A stretch of DNA of 64,000 nucleotides from assembly GCA_021166845.1 (NCBI GenBank), contig JAJPEP010000097.1:1-64000 (forward strand), in the 5' to 3' direction. The DNA comes from Thiobacillus sp. (lineage in GTDB: Bacteria; Pseudomonadota; Gammaproteobacteria; Burkholderiales; Thiobacillaceae). Below, in pieces: positions 2,436-37,906 of this stretch (positions are counted from its first letter, which is position 1; every line of letters starts with the position of its first letter). The notes beneath the pieces were generated by a model, which ran no database searches, was not told the DNA's origin, and saw only the letters and a program-made list of their open reading frames with translations. Made by a program: the position numbers and the translations under genes.

Positions 2436-3502
2436 GCATCCGCGCCCGCTTCAAGCTCGACTACTCCGGCTTCTCGCTCGACGTCGACCTCGACCTGCCC
2501 GGGCGCGGCGTCACCGCCCTGTTCGGCCATTCCGGTTCCGGCAAGACCACGCTGCTGCGCGCCGTCGCCGGGCTGGAGCATGCGCCCGGCGGCACGCTGT
2601 CCGTCAACGGCGAGGTCTGGCAGGACGCCGCGACGTTCCGGCCGACCCACCGGCGCCCGCTGGGCTACGTGTTCCAGGAAGCCAGCCTGTTTCCGCATCT
2701 CGACGTGCGGGCCAATCTGGAATTCGGGCAGAAGCGCGTGCCGCAAGCGCAGCGCCGGGTCTCGCTCGACCAGGCGGTGGCCATGCTCGACATCGGCCAT
2801 CTGCTCGGCCGCAAGCCTGCGCGGCTGTCCGGCGGCGAATGCCAGCGCGTCGGCATCGCGCGCGCGCTCGCCACCAGCCCGCGGCTGCTGCTGATGGACG
2901 AGCCGCTGGCGGCGCTCGATTTCGCGCTGAAGCAGGAAATCCTGCCCTACCTGGAACGTCTGCACGACGGGCTCGACATCCCCGTGCTCTATGTCAGCCA
3001 CGCGCCCGACGAAGTGGCGCGCCTGGCCGATCACATCGTGGTGATGCAGGGCGGCCGTGCGGTGGCCGCCGGCCCGCTCACCGACACCCTCGCCCGCCTC
3101 GACCTGCCCATCAGGCTGGGCGAGGATGCCGGCGTGGTGCTGGATGCGGTGGTGGCGGCGCGCGACGAAGAATGGCATCTGGCGCACATGGAATTCGCCG
3201 GCGGCCGCCTGTGGGTGCGCGACCACGGCCTGCCGGTCGGCCGCCGCGCCCGCGTGCGCATCCTCGCCCGCGACGTCAGCCTGGCGCGCGCGCCGACGAC
3301 CGGCACCAGCATCCTCAACACCCTGCCCGCCGTCGTCGTGGACAGCGTCGACGACGCCCATCCGGCGCTCACCCTGGTCAAGCTGCGCGTCGGCGAATCG
3401 CCGCTGCTGGCGCGCCTGACCCGACGCTCCGCGCATGCGCTCGAACTCGCTCCCGGGCGGATGGTTTACGTTCAGATCAAGGCGGTGGCGCTGATTGGGT
3501 GA
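2432..3502 (+). CDS. modC: Molybdate ABC transporter ATP-binding protein
   Basis: GTG start overlapping the modB stop (GTGA); Walker A GHSGSGKTT, signature LSGGE, C-terminal MOP-like domain. Confidence 0.95.
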   Translation: MSIRARFKLDYSGFSLDVDLDLPGRGVTALFGHSGSGKTTLLRAVAGLEHAPGGTLSVNGEVWQDAATFRPTHRRPLGYVFQEASLFPHLDVRANLEFGQKRVPQAQRRVSLDQAVAMLDIGHLLGRKPARLSGGECQRVGIARALATSPRLLLMDEPLAALDFALKQEILPYLERLHDGLDIPVLYVSHAPDEVARLADHIVVMQGGRAVAAGPLTDTLARLDLPIRLGEDAGVVLDAVVAARDEEWHLAHMEFAGGRLWVRDHGLPVGRRARVRILARDVSLARAPTTGTSILNTLPAVVVDSVDDAHPALTLVKLRVGESPLLARLTRRSAHALELAPGRMVYVQIKAVALIG

Positions 3503-3527: not shown

Positions 3528-4322
3528 CTACAATGATTTTTCCACTTCGACGTCGAGCCGATACCCCACCCCGACGACTGTTTTGAGCAGCGCCGGGAAC
3601 TTGACGTCGTCGCCGAGGCGGCGCCGCAAGCGCGTGATGGGGCGATCCAGCGTCCTGTTCTCGACGTCCGTGTCGGCGCCCCAGACGATGGCGATCAATT
3701 GCCGGCGGGTCAGCAACTGACGGGGAAAGGTTAAAAACGCCCTCAGCACCTCGAATTCCCGCTTGTCGAGCAGGATCGATTTTCCATCGCGCGACTCCAG
3801 TCGGCGCTCGTGACAATGGAGCGCCCATCCGGAAAAACGGTATACGCGGATGGACGCCTCGCGGGGATCGGCCGACTCGATTCGCGCCAGGCTCAAAACC
3901 CGCCTGATCGTGGCCACCAGTTTGCGCGGCTGGATGGGCAAGGCCAGCCGGGCATCGGGTTCGAAGCCGAGGGCGGCGGCACGGCCTGGAAACACATGCG
4001 ATCGGTCCAGAACGATCATGGGCATTTCCGGCTTTTCCGAAAGCCACTTCGGTCTGTTCGCGCGCTGACCCATGCCATCCAGGGCAAGGATCAGCACGTC
4101 GGCCGGCGGGGGCGAGGCCTCCATGTCCGTTGCCGCGACGACATCAAAGCCTTTGCCGCGCAAATAATCCACGAGCAGGGCCCGCGTCAGCGGATCGGGG
4201 TCGGACAAAAAAATTCGCGGGGAAAATATGGCCGTCGCTTCGGCTTCAGCGCCTGGCCGGAGCAAATCGGACTGTCCTGAATATCGCGGGCTCATCGGCG
4301 AACCCTGTTTTTCCTGCGGCAT
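3528..4322 (-). CDS. OmpR/PhoB-type response regulator with degenerate receiver
   Basis: C-terminal winged helix (LLDKREFEVLRAFLTFPRQLLTRRQLI...TLDRPITRLRRRLGDD...TVVGVGYRL); receiver has DVLILALDG and LALPIQP where DLVVLDLMLPG and YLSKPFNP are expected. Confidence 0.85.
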   Translation of the reverse strand: MPQEKQGSPMSPRYSGQSDLLRPGAEAEATAIFSPRIFLSDPDPLTRALLVDYLRGKGFDVVAATDMEASPPPADVLILALDGMGQRANRPKWLSEKPEMPMIVLDRSHVFPGRAAALGFEPDARLALPIQPRKLVATIRRVLSLARIESADPREASIRVYRFSGWALHCHERRLESRDGKSILLDKREFEVLRAFLTFPRQLLTRRQLIAIVWGADTDVENRTLDRPITRLRRRLGDDVKFPALLKTVVGVGYRLDVEVEKSL

Positions 4323-4386
4323 GGGAATGGCGGTGTTTTGCGGGTCGGGGGCCTGCCGTTACGGTTGCATGGTTCCCCGGTCGCGC

Positions 4387-5214
4387 TCAGCCGAAGCGGC
4401 CCGTTATGTAATCTTCGGTCTGCTTGACCGTGGGCGTGAGGAACACGTCGTTGGTGCGGCCCATTTCGATCAGCTCGCCCATGTACATGAATGCGGTGTA
4501 ATCGGAAACCCGCGCCGCCTGCTGCATGTTGTGGGTAACGATAATGATCGTGTAGCGATCTTTCATCTCGTTGACCAGTTCCTCGATCTTGGCGGTGGAA
4601 ATGGGATCGAGCGCGGACGCCGGCTCGTCGAGCAGCAGGACATCCGGCTCCAGGGCGATGGCGCGGGCGATCACCAGGCGCTGTTGCTGGCCGCCGGAAA
4701 GGCTCATGCCGTTCTCGTTGAGGCGATCCTTGACTTCGTTCCACAGCGCCGCGCCGCGCAGGGCCTTCTCGACCGCTTCATCCAGCGTGCTGCGATTGTT
4801 GACGCCCATGATGCGCAGGCCGTAGGCCACGTTTTCGTAGATGGACTTGGGGAACGGGTTGGGCTTCTGGAACACCATGCCGACGCGACGGCGCAGCAGC
4901 GCGACGTTGACGTCGCGGTCATAGATGTTCTTGCCTTCCATCAGAATCTTGCCGTCCACGCGACAGATGTCGACCAGGTCGTTCATGCGGTTGAAGCAGC
5001 GGAGCAGGGTCGACTTGCCGCAGCCGCTGGGGCCGATGAATGCGGTCACGCGGTTTTTCGGCAGGTTCATGCCGACGCTTTTCAGCGCTTGGGCTTCGCC
5101 GTAATAAAGATTCAGATTCTCGACACGGATCGCCACTTCGTCCGTGTCTTCCGTCTGCGTGCGCCCCAAGCCGGCTATCTTTATCGCGTGGGTTTTCGGG
5201 CTGGCTTCGCTCAT
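4387..5214 (-). CDS. pstB: Phosphate ABC transporter ATP-binding protein
   Basis: [28 protein letters not shown]; adjacent to pstA/pstC; ATG at 5214 chosen. Confidence 0.97.
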
Positions 5215-5257
5215 TTCTAAGTCCTTCGGATCTATCGTTGTATGGGGAGGCGGGCGA

Positions 5258-6913
5258 TCAAACGCCTTCGAGGCCGCGCATACGCTCGCGCAGGCGGTTG
5301 CGCAGCCGGATCGCGAACAGGTTGAGCACGACAATGGTGATTACCAGCAGGAGTGAAGTGGCATAAACCAGGGGGCGTGCCGCTTCGACGTTGGGACTCT
5401 GGAAGCCGACGTCGTAGATATGGAAGCCCAGGTGCATGAATTTCCGCTCCAGGTGCAGGAAGGGAAAGTTGCCGTCGAGCGGCAGGCTGGGAGCCAGCTT
5501 CACCACGCCGACCAGCATCAGAGGGGCCACTTCGCCGGCTGCGCGAGCGACCGCCAGGATCAGGCCGGTCATCATCGCCGGGCTGGCGATGGGCAGCACG
5601 GTACGCCACAGGGTTTCCGCCTTGGTCGCGCCCAGCGCCAGGCTTCCTTCACGGATTGAGCGAGGAACGCGCGCCAAGCCTTCCTCGGTCGCCACGATGA
5701 CGACCGGCAGGGTCAGCAACGCCAGTGTGAGCGAAGACCAGAGAATGCCGGGGCTGCCGAACACCGGGGCGGGATGCGCTTCGGGAAAGAACAACGCGTC
5801 GATATTGCCGCCGAGAAAATAGACGAAGAAACCCAGGCCGAACACCCCGTAAACAATCGACGGCACACCCGCGAGGTTGTTGACCGAGATGCGGATGATC
5901 CGGATCAGCGGACCCTGTTTGGCATATTCGCGCATATAGACGGCCGCCATGATGCCCAGCGGCGTCACCATGACCGACATCAGCAGCACCATCAGCACAG
6001 TGCCGAAGATGGCGGGGAAAATGCCGCCCTCGGTATTCGCCTCGCGCGGATCGTCGACGATGAATTCATACAGCTTCCGCAGGTAGTGGCCGGCCTTTTC
6101 CGGGAGGCTCATGTCATTGGGCTTGATGACGTCGGCGATCTTGGAAAACGGAATCTCGATCACCTGGCCATCCTGGATCTCGGCGGTCAGGCTGTCGCGC
6201 TGGTTTTGCGCCCGCAGTTCGTCCAGCCGCGCCTGCAGTCTGGCGAATGCAGCGTCGTGTATCTGCAGTTCCTGGCCGATCGCGGCCATCGCCTCGTCGC
6301 CGAGTTCGCCCAGCAGTTCGAGCTTGCGCTGCTTCAGGCGCAGACGCTCAAGGCTGTAGTTGATCTTGCCGATGTCGTGTTTCTCGATGCTCAGGATCTC
6401 GTCGAACAGGTCCTTGGAACGCGCCAGCCGCTTCTGCAATTCGGGCCACGCGGCTTCACCCTCGGCCACGACCTGGCCGTTTTCCTTGACCGATTTGAGA
6501 TGGCCGAAAAAACCGCCCCATTCATGCCGTTCGATCGAGATCACATCCTTCGGGTACTTGAACTCGCCCAGCAGGGGCGTGGGGATCCATTTGAAATCGA
6601 CCCCGTAGACGTCACGGTTGCCCTGCTTGAAGAGATAACGGCTGGTGAATTTGTCGTCGCTCTTGATGTCGTAGCCAGACTCCCGCAGCCGCAGCAGGGA
6701 AATTTCTTCCTTGTCGCGCAGTTCGCCGATCAGGCGCTGGACGCTGCCGTCGGATTCTGTGACCGTCGTTTCCACCAAGGGCTTCGGCCACCAGTGGCCA
6801 AGGCCCTGGGCCGCCGTCATCCAGACCACGGCGTACACCGACACGAGGGACAGGGCCACCGCCCCGGCCGTCATCCAAATCCAGGGCTCGCCGCCCTTGA
6901 ACCAGTCACGCAT
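5258..6913 (-). CDS. pstA: Phosphate ABC transporter permease PstA (long N-terminal extension)
   Basis: [41 protein letters not shown]. Confidence 0.95.
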
Positions 6914-6924
6914 CGCTTGGATCC

Positions 6925-9204
6925 TCAGATAGAGCTGTATTTATCGCGCAGGCGCTGGCGCACCAGTTCGGCGAGGGTGTTGATGAAGAAGGTGAAGGCG
7001 AACAGCACCAAGGCCGAGAAGAACAGCAGCAGATAATGGGTCGAACCCACCGCAGCCTCCGGCATTTCCACGCCGATATTGGCCGACAGGGTGCGGAAGC
7101 CGGTAAAAATCGACAGATCCATGACGGCCGTATTGCCGGTGGCCATCAGAACGATCATGGTCTCGCCGACAGCGCGGCCCATGCCCACCATGATGGCGGA
7201 GAAGATGCCCGGGCTGGCGGTCAACAGCACGACATTGAACAGGGTTTGCCAGGGGGTCGCGCCGAGGGCCAGCGATCCGCTGGTGAGGTGCTTGGGCACG
7301 CTGAAAATCGCGTCCTCGGCGATGGAAAAAATGTTGGGGATCACGGCGAAGCCCATGGCGATGCCGACCACCAGGGAGTTGCGCTGCTCGTAGGACCAGC
7401 CCAGTTCATTGCTCACCCAGCGCGGCATGTCACCGCCGAAGAACGTGGCTTCAAGAGGATGGCCCAGCAGGACCGCCGCCCAGATCACCAGGATGATGAC
7501 CGGCGCCAGCAGGGCGGCTTCCCACCCCGGGCCGACGTTATTGATCAACTGCCGCGGAAGCCGATGCCAAACCCACGCCGTGATCACGAAACTGAACGGC
7601 AGCATGAATATCGCCAGCAAGGTGCCAGCGAGGTTGTTGTCGACGAAGGGCGCCAGCCACAAACCTGCCAGAAAACCCAGAATCACGGTCGGCAGGGCTT
7701 CCATGATCTCGATTGACGGCTTGACCACGCTGCGCATCTTCGGCGACATGAAATAGGCCGCGAAAATGGCGCCCAGCACCGCCAGCGGAACCGCCACCAT
7801 CATTGCGTAGAAGGCCGCTTTCAAGGTGCCGAAAGTCAGCGGCGCGACGCTGAATTTCGGCTCGAAATCCGAGTTGGCGGCGGCCGACTGCCACACGTAG
7901 TCCGGCTCTTCATAGCTTTCGTACCAGACCTTGCCCCACAGCGAGCCGAAGGAGATTTCCGGATATTCGTTCTCGACATGGGCCGAACGAATTTCGCCCT
8001 GAGTCGTTTCCAGCAGCACGGCATTCGCACGCGGGGCGAAGGCCATCAGCCGCGCCGGCTCGGCGCCGGTGGCGCGCTCGACCAGCAGGCGCTCGGACGT
8101 GGCGTAATAGAGGCTTACGCCCCCCTTGTCGTCGGCCGCGACGAAGCCCTTGCGGGCATATTCCGGGGCGACCGAAGTGATTGCAGCGCCCATCGGCTTG
8201 AACTCACGAATTCGGGTGAGCGTATTCTTGTTGTTCGCATCCCGCACCTGGAACCACTGGACCAGATGCCCCTTGTCGGTGCCGAGAAGGAGGGAGAACC
8301 CTCCCGACAGTAATGCGGCCGCGGTGACGCGTTCTCCTTCCGGCACGACCGTAACGGTCTGCTTCAGGCTCGGCGCATCCTTGTTCTGGACGTCGAAATG
8401 GCTGACGAAACGGCCGCCGTGCACCACGTAGAGATCGCGCTGCTTGACCTCCAGCAGGATCTGGTCGATCTCGCCCTTGAGCCGGGGCAATTCATGGACA
8501 GCCGCACGCTCGGTCGTGACCGATTCGCCGGTGAAATCGCTCTCGCTGGAGAAGTAGGCCAGCAGCAGGCGATCGTCCCCGGTCTGCGCGACCGCGGTGG
8601 CGCCCTCCTCGTCATGCTGGATGGCCAGGCGCTTGAGCGGCTGGCCGGCGTCGTCCACCACCAGGGCGTCCGTGCCCAGCGGGTAAACCAGGCCTGGCGC
8701 AATGCTGCGAATATCCCTGGTTGGATCCTTCGGATCCTGGGTGAACGTAACCTTGTAATCGTCCTTCAGCAGCAGCAGTCGTCCGTCGGCAAGGCCGAAG
8801 GCCATGGCCCGCTTGCGAAGATCGCCCACCGAAAAACTGGTGGCCCGCACCGATCCGGGCAAGGCAACCCGCTCCTTTAGCAGAGGCTTGCCGTCGAGAA
8901 GGCTGAAGAACGTGACATCGCCCTGGTCGGCAATGCGAGCCCCGATCTCGACCTGCTCCTCCATCGCGAGGTGAACCGTCGACTGATCCGTCAGCGAAGG
9001 CACTGCCAGGGATTTCAGCTCGTCCATGTGGGAGGGCATGAACAGGGGCGCCACCACGCCGGCGAGATAGAAAAAGATCGTGCTGATCGCGATGATCACG
9101 CTCAGGCCGCCCAGGACCATGACGTACTTGAACAGCCTGTCCTTCGCCATCCGGCGGCCGGTGAAGCCCCCCGCGGAGGTAATGCTGGATTCAATCTTTT
9201 CCAT
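6925..9204 (-). CDS. pstC: Phosphate ABC transporter permease PstC with large periplasmic domain
   Basis: 759 aa; C-terminal permease domain ([40 protein letters not shown]). Confidence 0.94.
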   Translation of the reverse strand: MEKIESSITSAGGFTGRRMAKDRLFKYVMVLGGLSVIIAISTIFFYLAGVVAPLFMPSHMDELKSLAVPSLTDQSTVHLAMEEQVEIGARIADQGDVTFFSLLDGKPLLKERVALPGSVRATSFSVGDLRKRAMAFGLADGRLLLLKDDYKVTFTQDPKDPTRDIRSIAPGLVYPLGTDALVVDDAGQPLKRLAIQHDEEGATAVAQTGDDRLLLAYFSSESDFTGESVTTERAAVHELPRLKGEIDQILLEVKQRDLYVVHGGRFVSHFDVQNKDAPSLKQTVTVVPEGERVTAAALLSGGFSLLLGTDKGHLVQWFQVRDANNKNTLTRIREFKPMGAAITSVAPEYARKGFVAADDKGGVSLYYATSERLLVERATGAEPARLMAFAPRANAVLLETTQGEIRSAHVENEYPEISFGSLWGKVWYESYEEPDYVWQSAAANSDFEPKFSVAPLTFGTLKAAFYAMMVAVPLAVLGAIFAAYFMSPKMRSVVKPSIEIMEALPTVILGFLAGLWLAPFVDNNLAGTLLAIFMLPFSFVITAWVWHRLPRQLINNVGPGWEAALLAPVIILVIWAAVLLGHPLEATFFGGDMPRWVSNELGWSYEQRNSLVVGIAMGFAVIPNIFSIAEDAIFSVPKHLTSGSLALGATPWQTLFNVVLLTASPGIFSAIMVGMGRAVGETMIVLMATGNTAVMDLSIFTGFRTLSANIGVEMPEAAVGSTHYLLLFFSALVLFAFTFFINTLAELVRQRLRDKYSSI

Positions 9205-9309
9205 GATTTACCACGTAATCCATGCGCCCAGGCGCATAAACCTTGCAAAAATGGGGCCGAACCCGATGCAGGTTCGGCCCGGTTTTCGGCCATTCGACCG
9301 GATTGTTTT

Positions 9310-9924
9310 TTACTTGCGCAGCGCGCTGAACTGCTCGACGAGGGCGACGGGGCGTCCCTTTTTCTTGGTAACGCCGTTCAAGGCGTAGATCACGGTTTCG
9401 CCCTTGGGACCGGCGCCGATTTCCGTGTAGGTAAAGGTGATTTCCTTGTGGGCCAGATAGTCCTGGAAATCCTTCCATTCACCGAAGACATGGAAGCGGC
9501 CATTGCGCAGCACTTCACCGTAGAAGGCGCCGACATCCCTGGTGCGGCCGTCGAAAATGTCCTCGGCGGCGGTGGGCTTGTCCAGATGCTTGCCGTCCGC
9601 CTTGGTGATTCCGAAGATCACGGTTTCACCCTCGGGTCCGGCACCGATGCGGGTCCGGGTCAGCGGCACTTCATCGGTATTCAGAAAGCTGACGTAGATC
9701 TTGGGGTCGGTCATGGCGTAGATACGGCCATTCTCGTGGTACGCCATAAAATATGTCTGCTTCTGGGCCGGGGCTTCGGCTTTCGCCGCGACCGGGGCGC
9801 TTTCGGTCTTTGCGACAGGCATTGCCGCCTTGCTGTCGGTCGGGGCCTGGTGGGTGGCACACCCGCCCAGAATAAACAGGGCGGACAGTGCAACAACCGA
9901 TTTTCGCTGCAGGGTATTCAACAT
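9310..9924 (-). CDS. Two-repeat lipoprotein encoded inside the pst operon
   Basis: Lipobox LGGCA; two similar units containing TRIGAGPEGETVIFGI and TEIGAGPKGETVIYAL. Confidence 0.8.
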   Translation of the reverse strand: MLNTLQRKSVVALSALFILGGCATHQAPTDSKAAMPVAKTESAPVAAKAEAPAQKQTYFMAYHENGRIYAMTDPKIYVSFLNTDEVPLTRTRIGAGPEGETVIFGITKADGKHLDKPTAAEDIFDGRTRDVGAFYGEVLRNGRFHVFGEWKDFQDYLAHKEITFTYTEIGAGPKGETVIYALNGVTKKKGRPVALVEQFSALRK

Positions 9925-9991
9925 GTTTTCACTCCATTCTCGTTGTCCGCCGCGCCCCGTCAGGGGCGCGGCGGCAGGGTTGCATGCGGGA

Positions 9992-10975
9992 TCAGTTGAT
10001 TCCCAGGTCGCTCAGGGCCTTGTTGACCATGCCGGCCGGCATCGGCACGAAGCCGTCCTTGACCACCACTTCCTGGCCCTGCCTGGACAGAACCATCTTG
10101 AAGAACTCGCGCTCCAGGGGGGGCAGCGGCTGGTTCGGGCGCTTGTTCACATAGACGTACAGAACGCGCGACAGCGGGTAGGTCTTGTTGAGCGCATTCA
10201 CGGCATTCGCTTCCACGAAAGACTCGCCATCCTTCTTGGACAGCGCCACGGGACGCACGCCGGAAGTCCTGTATCCGATGCCGGAGTAGCCGATGGCGCC
10301 GATCTGGCCGGACACGCTCTGCACCACGGAGGCGGAACCGGGCTGCTCGGCGACGCGCTTGGAGAAATCACCCTTGCACAGGGCGTTCTTCTTGAAGTAG
10401 CCGTAGGTGCCCGACACCGAGTTGCGGCCATACAGGGCGACGGGACGGTTGGCCCAATCGCCGGTCATGCCGACGTCGCCCCACTTGGCGATTTCCTTGG
10501 CGCCGCCGCACTTGCGGGTCGAGGAAAAAATGGCATCGACCTGGGGAATGGACAGGCCGGGAACCGGGTTGTCCTTGTTGACGTACACGGCCAGGGCGTC
10601 GATCGCCACCGGCACGGCGGTGGGCTTGTAGCCATGCTTCTTCTCGAAGGCGACGATTTCCTCGTCCTTCATCGTCCGGCTCATGGGGCCGAAGTTGGAA
10701 GCGCCCTGGATCAGCGCGGGTGGCGCGGTCGAGGAACCGGCGCCCTGGATCTGGATGTTGACGTTGGGGTAGTTGCGCTTGTAGGTCTCGGCCCACAGCG
10801 TCATCAGGTTGTTCAGGGTGTCGGATCCGACGCTGGTGAAGTTGCCGGACACGCCGCTGGCCTTCTGGTAGGTCGGCAGCGCGGGGTCGACCTTGACGGC
10901 CTGGGCCAGCACGGCGGTTCCGACCAAAGAGCAGGCCAGGAAGCCGAGTGTGGCAACAATTTTTTTCTGAACCAT
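9992..10975 (-). CDS. pstS: Phosphate-binding protein PstS
   Basis: Signal peptide, [29 protein letters not shown]; first gene of the pst operon. Confidence 0.94.
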
Positions 10976-11082
10976 GAGCTTAATCTCCAATGAAGTAACG
11001 GGGGCTTGGACTTTTCTCCAAATGCAAAACTGCACGAACGATTAACTTCCGTCGTTCAGCGATCGCTACGATAGGGATCGAG

Positions 11083-11101
11083 TGTTACGGTTTCGTGACG
11101 G
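11083..11101 (-). promoter_or_regulatory. Putative Pho box upstream of pstS
   Basis: Minus strand CCGTCACGAAACCGTAACA compared with CTGTCATAAAACTGTCA: two direct half-sites 11 bp apart. Confidence 0.65.
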
Positions 11102-37132: not shown

Positions 37133-37906
37133 ATGAGTGCAGAACCCGATGTGCCCGATATGCGGACGGACCAACCGGTTTGCAGCATGGAGCGGCAATG
37201 TAGCGTGCTGATCGTGGATGACGATGCGGAATTGTGCGATCTGCTGGTGCGCTATCTGCAGGGCAACGGATTCGAGGTGTTTGCAGTCGGCGATGGTGCG
37301 GCAATGGAAAAGCACCTGCGCGGCCGGCCCGCAGATCTGGTTGTTCTCGACCTGATGCTACCCGGCAAGGATGGCTTGACCATCGCACGGGAACTGCGCG
37401 GCGGCGGCAACATGCCGGTGATCATACTGTCGGCACGCGCCGACGATATCGACCGCATCATCGGACTGGAAGTGGGCGCCGACGATTATTTGTCCAAACC
37501 ATTCAACCCGCGCGAACTGCTGGCACGCATCCGCGCCGTGTTGCGCCGCAGGATGGCGGAGACGGCAGGAGATGCGCCCTCGGCCGCGGGGCAGGTGCAC
37601 CGGTTCGGGCCTTTCCGTCTCGATATGAAGGCGCACCAGTTGGCCCGGGGTGACCAGGAGGTTCCGCTGACCACCGCGGAGTTCAAGCTGCTGAGCCTGT
37701 TTGTTGGGCTCCCCAACCAGTTGTTGAGCCGTGACACGCTGATGAACATGCTCAAGGGCTACGAGTGCGCCCCGTTCGACCGCAGCATCGATGTCGCGGT
37801 TACACGGCTGCGGCGCAAGATCGAGGACAACCCCGGCGCGCCACAATTCATCCGCACCGTGAGGGGCGAAGGTTATCTGTTTACGCCGAACCACAAACTC
37901 AAGTGA
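37133..37906 (+). CDS. OmpR-family response regulator
   Basis: LIVDDDAELCDLL, DLVVLDLMLPGKDG, DYLSKPFNPRELLARIRAVL; winged helix. Confidence 0.95.
   Translation: MSAEPDVPDMRTDQPVCSMERQCSVLIVDDDAELCDLLVRYLQGNGFEVFAVGDGAAMEKHLRGRPADLVVLDLMLPGKDGLTIARELRGGGNMPVIILSARADDIDRIIGLEVGADDYLSKPFNPRELLARIRAVLRRRMAETAGDAPSAAGQVHRFGPFRLDMKAHQLARGDQEVPLTTAEFKLLSLFVGLPNQLLSRDTLMNMLKGYECAPFDRSIDVAVTRLRRKIEDNPGAPQFIRTVRGEGYLFTPNHKLK

Follow-up and report, generated by a model that had tools for sequence, protein, structure and literature searches.

A degenerate-receiver OmpR-family regulator encoded at the end of an accessory pst operon in Thiobacillus

How might a response regulator act when its receiver domain no longer carries the residues needed for phosphorylation, and what could such a protein be doing at the end of a phosphate-transport operon? 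These questions are raised by a locus in a 64,000-nucleotide stretch of DNA (referred to here as the window) from a Thiobacillus metagenome-assembled genome which is 86% complete with 6% contamination. A first-pass annotation had proposed that a pst operon ends here in an OmpR-type regulator gene, 64 bp downstream of pstB and on the same strand, and both statements were borne out: the gene order is pstS2–lipoprotein–pstC2–pstA2–pstB2–regulator (Table 1), and the last two genes are separated by a gap at 4323–4386 in which we sought a terminator-like site and found none. The regulator gene is an open reading frame of 264 codons running from the ATG at 4322 down to 3528, with no open frame on the plus strand there, and faces modC, a plus-strand gene ending at 3502, in a convergent arrangement. 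Its translation start is uncertain, as the first ~32 residues are weakly conserved and several orthologues lack the ATG.

Table 1. Features of the accessory pst (pst2) operon, its promoter and the terminal regulator gene in the window.
Feature	Position	Strand	Remarks
OmpR-family regulator gene, atypical	3528..4322	minus	receiver ~34-145 degenerate, winged-helix ~164-258
Ala80 codon (phospho-acceptor Asp position)	4083..4085	minus	numbering from ATG at 4322
pstB2, Pst transporter ATPase	4387..5220	minus	TIGR00972, 410 bits
pstA2, long-form permease, 551 aa	5258..6913	minus	TIGR00974 over cut-off
pstC2, long-form permease, 759 aa	6925..9204	minus	type widespread in other gammaproteobacterial families
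Lipoprotein-like protein	9310..9924	minus	conserved between pstS2 and pstC2; no Pfam/NCBIfam match
pstS2, phosphate-binding protein	9992..10975	minus	TIGR02136 over cut-off; start is a conserved ATG
Dyad GAACGA-N10-TCGTTC	11036..11057	minus	conserved; just downstream of inferred transcription start
-10-like hexamer TATCGT	11068..11073	minus	10 bp after PhoB-box-like repeat
PhoB-box-like 11-bp direct repeat GTCAC-N6-GTAAC	11084..11099	minus	conserved in 12 pst2 promoters

The receiver was originally compared with the intact regulator encoded at 37133–37906 in the window, and the three motif changes reported on that basis are exact, with VDDD replaced by SDPD, DLVVLDLM by DVLILALD and YLSKPF by RLALPI (the Ser of SDPD is peculiar to this genome, as most orthologues have Val there). 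Profile–profile alignment places Ala80, and not an acidic residue, at the phosphorylation site, with Pro42 in place of the second acidic residue (the Mg-ligand Asp) and Leu128 in place of the conserved Lys. It also identified two changes beyond those noted earlier, from the conserved Thr/Ser to Asp106 and from the switch Tyr to Arg125, which leaves Asp41, the first acidic residue, as the sole active-site residue remaining. A one-off mutation or sequencing error had been named as a possible source of the Asp loss, and this can be dismissed as 13 orthologues share it: the phospho-acceptor position is occupied by Ala in 11 of these and by Ser and Val in one each, and is never acidic. The second acidic position is Pro, Ala or Ser, the Lys position is Leu in 12 sequences and Met in the other, and all 12 orthologues that can be read at position 41 retain Asp there (the G026 sequence has undetermined bases at residues 41–43). 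The orthologues have also acquired a set of invariant receiver residues of their own (Asp106, Arg107, Arg125, Leu126 and Pro129), and each of the 13 has either Ile or Val at the K+2 position. The canonical residues, in contrast, are kept by the nearest OmpR-family relatives outside the group (27/27) and by the PhoB of the same genome. A canonical response regulator has the phospho-acceptor Asp, the acidic pair, the Thr/Ser and the Lys all present, and the Thiobacillus protein is not one of these; it belongs with the aspartate-less or atypical receivers, defined as having a receiver fold missing at least one of five active-site residues, the phospho-acceptor Asp included (PMC12632262).

Loss of the phosphorylation chemistry, judged here from sequence, makes Asp phosphorylation of the regulator very unlikely. 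A working, if odd, response regulator might still be imagined in which phosphate is taken by Asp82, Asp106 or Asp41, and the invariance of Asp106 and the retention of Asp41 in every readable sequence are what would be expected of it; however, G053 has Ala and G047 has Gly in place of Asp82, neither the catalytic Lys nor the direct Mg ligand nor the Thr/Ser has survived, and we regard such unusual phosphorylation as very improbable.

The winged helix, which the first-pass annotation thought intact, is recognised as such (PF00486, 69 bits), and the same domain is found in 13/13 orthologues with E-values down to 3.7e-21. The PF00072 receiver model matched none of the 13 orthologues even at an E-value of 1, and annotation by profile would therefore miss the receiver altogether. 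Alignment by hhalign with canonical OmpR-family regulators nevertheless spans the full length of the protein (probability 100, E 1.7e-42, columns 29–261), and the N-terminal receiver-type domain is in register with canonical OmpR/PhoB members, placing the regulator in this family. Full-length family scores were 93.5 bits for VirG, 80.3 for OmpR and 73.5 for PhoB (TIGR02154), all of them below the family cut-offs (296.2 bits for PhoB, and 331 and 344 for the other two). We considered whether the regulator could be a PhoB paralogue, and this was ruled out by the score of 73.5 against 296.2 bits together with the recognition helix, which reads DRPITRLR in the regulator and DVHIRRLR in the PhoB of this genome. 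With a recognition helix unlike that of PhoB, the regulator would be expected to differ from PhoB in how it reads PhoB boxes. In an AlphaFold model built from an alignment of five sequences, with a mean pLDDT of 67, confidence is good over the winged helix, moderate over residues 34–81 and poor over residues 108–128 (pLDDT <50); Ala80 is put at the end of a strand formed by residues 76–81. Foldseek searches with this model found full-length structures of the OmpR/PhoB family at low whole-chain TM-scores, RitR and CosR (both orphan regulators) among them. This supports the assigned fold but not a particular activity state, as the model is too weak in the later half of the receiver for an active-like conformation to be judged.

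Orthologues with 61–94% identity were found in 13 of 56 Thiobacillus genomes. None were found in 61 genomes from the other genera of the family, and none were recognised amongst genomes sampled from the order (399) and the class (369); the best matches outside Thiobacillus were canonical regulators with 33–38% identity. The 13 orthologues group together in a single clade with a long stem, and because of this the loss of receiver chemistry is most simply seen as ancestral, probably a single event before the group radiated. Median dN/dS was lowest in the DNA-binding domain (0.20), followed by the receiver (0.27), and reached 0.57 over the first 33 residues (Nei–Gojobori estimates from a custom script; silent sites approach saturation in distant pairs, but close pairs agree); for the close pair of the window regulator and that of G052, the receiver gave 0.029/0.105. 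We conclude from these comparisons that the receiver is under purifying selection and is being maintained. A gene that is decaying, or that is neutral and travels with the operon, would account for a regulator that evolves faster than PstB2, has been lost in one genome (G035, below) and has a weakly conserved N-terminus, but the frame is open in 13/13 orthologues, the receiver ratio is well below 1, and many residues are invariant in both domains. On the open frames and dN/dS values we reject decay as an explanation and consider it very improbable.

The operon carrying the regulator can be assigned as a second, accessory pst operon (pst2). Linkage to pstB, which the first-pass annotation had left to be checked, proved general, as the regulator lies downstream of the pst2 pstB in all 13 genomes, and the order pstS, lipoprotein-like gene, pstC, pstA, pstB and regulator is repeated at the 12 other loci as far as the contigs reach. 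PstB2 itself was found in 15 genomes; the two without a regulator are G036, where the contig stops ~280 bp after pstB2, and G035, in which pst2 lies between an apparent glmM end and the canonical pst operon, the latter following it immediately (locus L039, G035:C119:1-16000). G035 nests among regulator-bearing lineages in the PstA, PstC and PstS trees and is a natural case of regulator loss. It should be noted that a shared history of linkage could also reflect the inheritance of one operon, with no functional tie between regulator and transporter.

Two further observations concern the operon as a whole. Firstly, across 3528–11035, PstA, PstC and PstS group with those of G013, G029 and G035, and PstB and the regulator with those of G052 (PstB also with G053), which suggests that pst2 is a mosaic and that recombination may have occurred within it. 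Secondly, a strong terminator-like hairpin with 12 pairs and a T-rich tail is located at 9254–9280 on the minus strand, between the lipoprotein-like gene and pstC2, and could lower expression of the permeases relative to PstS2.

The absence of phoU, phoR and a canonical phoB beside the regulator, also remarked on in the first-pass annotation, is correct with respect to adjacency, but all three are present elsewhere in the genome, with phoB–phoR on contig C108 (PhoB scores 361 bits and PhoR is adjacent), phoU on C71, and a canonical pst operon carried by C90. Most Thiobacillus genomes encode a canonical PstB (~350 bits). Since canonical PhoBR is encoded elsewhere in the genome, the regulator is an addition to this system and not a replacement for it. 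Long-form PstC proteins occur in 119/369 of the sampled class genomes and are common in other gammaproteobacterial families, and we selected 20 long-form pst operons of other families from amongst the best matches, 19 of which have sequence past pstB. The next gene was phoU in 19/19 and a regulator in 0/19, and the Thiobacillus regulator thus occupies what is usually the phoU slot. In two genomes only, G015 and G026, a divergent second phoU is retained between pstB2 and the regulator (L020:8008-8628 and G026:C49:14680-15300).

Occupation of this slot raises the possibility that the degenerate receiver docks with or senses PstB2, PhoR or a small molecule, gating DNA binding and so coupling the activity of Pst2 to transcription. 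The invariant residues Asp106, Arg107, Arg125, Leu126 and Pro129 suggest a new conserved surface that could serve such a contact, and ligand control is known for the pseudo-receivers JadR1 and RedZ (PMC12632262). Gene position by itself, however, is no proof of contact, and the coexistence of phoU2 and the regulator in G015 and G026 means that neither simply substitutes for the other; we hold docking or sensing of this kind to be unlikely. That the pseudo-receiver took the phoU slot and reads the state of Pst2 by contact, making it a flux-controlled transcription factor working without a histidine kinase, we consider quite improbable.

The region upstream of pstS2 offers a further indication of how the regulator might be produced. 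In 12 pst2 promoters a repeat with the consensus GTCAY-N6-GTAAY, with small departures, is followed after 10 bp by TATCGT, and the repeat in the window is the only match to the pattern in this genome. A repeat and a −10 element separated by 10 bp is the geometry of PhoB-activated promoters. In this genome, GTCAT repeats spaced by 11 bp are present in the phoB promoter, and a related repeat, TGAAAT/TGTAAT, in that of the canonical pst operon. By resemblance, then, the pst2 promoter has the PhoB-box spacing that would place it in the Pho regulon.

Just downstream lies a dyad whose arms are 6 to 10 bp apart, with compensatory changes at two stem pairs among 12 species. We tried this as a genome-wide operator and rejected it, as exact matches across the genus number about one per genome (one in this genome), the same as for a reversed-pattern control; with matches no commoner than this, the dyad carries information at the pst2 promoter alone. 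RNA folding energies for the dyad were no better than those of shuffled sequences. Given the variable arm spacing and compensatory stem changes, an operator is no more likely than a leader hairpin. These data bear on the possibility that the regulator works in the Pho network as a repressor or anti-activator, forming a heterodimer with PhoB or binding the pst2 promoter (e.g. at the dyad) to damp the operon. A site just downstream of the inferred start is a classic position for a repressor, and in G035, where the pst2 upstream region differs, the dyad is absent along with the regulator. Against this, the dyad spacing and partly compensatory arm changes fit an RNA hairpin better than an operator, and the dyad is unlike the direct repeats that are the usual binding sites of OmpR-family proteins; the difference in recognition helix from PhoB likewise speaks against it, and we think a role in repression distinctly unlikely.

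The reading that we favour, and believe to be rather probable, is that the regulator is a genus-specific, aspartate-less OmpR-family factor that is co-transcribed with Pst2 under PhoB and acts independently of phosphorylation as a second-tier Pho regulator, with its activity set by its level. Under phosphate starvation, canonical PhoR–PhoB would activate the pst2 promoter through the PhoB-box-like repeat, and the regulator would be produced together with the Pst2 transporter, fold into a DNA-binding form without phosphorylation, and act on its own target sites according to the amount made; autoregulation of pst2 is one candidate. The description offered by the first-pass annotation, of a phosphorylation-independent and Pho-linked transcription factor, is consistent with this, the first part being strongly implied by the receiver residues and the second inferred from the intact winged helix, the promoter and synteny. 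It is likewise a prediction that the gene is co-transcribed with pst2 under PhoB control, that the protein binds DNA and is constitutively active, and that phosphate matters to its function. ChxR, HP1043 and GlnR dimerise without phosphorylation, as do many atypical regulators, and K+2 substitutions of the Ile/Val type shift the CheY receiver towards active conformations (PMC12632262). By analogy, constitutive activity set by supply would be the simplest mechanism for such proteins. The α4–β5–α5 face is the canonical dimer interface (PMC12632262), and profile–profile alignment indicates that its charges have been replaced in the regulator (Asp to Ala124, Glu to Lys134, Arg to Thr138 and Arg to Ser144). 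As these positions are now taken by other conserved residues, any dimer is probably not canonical, and the usual active dimer may not form.

Aspartate-less OmpR-family proteins are already known as a type, with ~2% of receivers joined to OmpR-type domains lacking the Asp (PMC4395418). We found nothing relevant in the open-licence literature on Thiobacillus pst or on a pst-linked atypical regulator, and an atypical regulator in the phoU slot of a pst operon, kept across part of a genus, was not found described. How pseudo-receivers switch has been described as unsolved (PMC12632262), and this locus provides a tractable case, with one regulator, one linked transporter, phosphate as the candidate signal and a natural loss in G035. 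The 13 sequences define a new conserved residue set at the former phosphorylation site, and the regulator may represent an extra, phosphate-responsive tier on top of PhoBR in a sulfur oxidiser from the environment.

The regulator can be placed by comparison with several known systems. PhoU shares the slot directly after pstB, but has no sequence relation to the regulator and is not a DNA-binding response regulator. PhoB (TIGR02154) belongs to the same OmpR/PhoB family and is likewise pst-linked, but the regulator differs from it in both recognition helix and receiver chemistry. OmpR and VirG give the best full-length scores, and the nearest relatives of the regulator outside the group share an OmpR-like recognition helix; the regulator is nonetheless far below the OmpR and VirG cut-offs, is only ~35% identical to these relatives, and has lost the receiver chemistry. 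The closest parallels are ChxR, HP1043/HsrA, CosR, CmrT, JadR1 and RitR, in which an OmpR-type winged helix also stands behind a receiver without the phosphorylation residues and which likewise have no kinase beside the gene, and by analogy with these the regulator would be expected to bind DNA without phosphorylation. For this group we found no link to phosphate transport described, whereas the Thiobacillus regulator is genus-specific, is encoded within a pst operon, and has a receiver that is invisible to PF00072.
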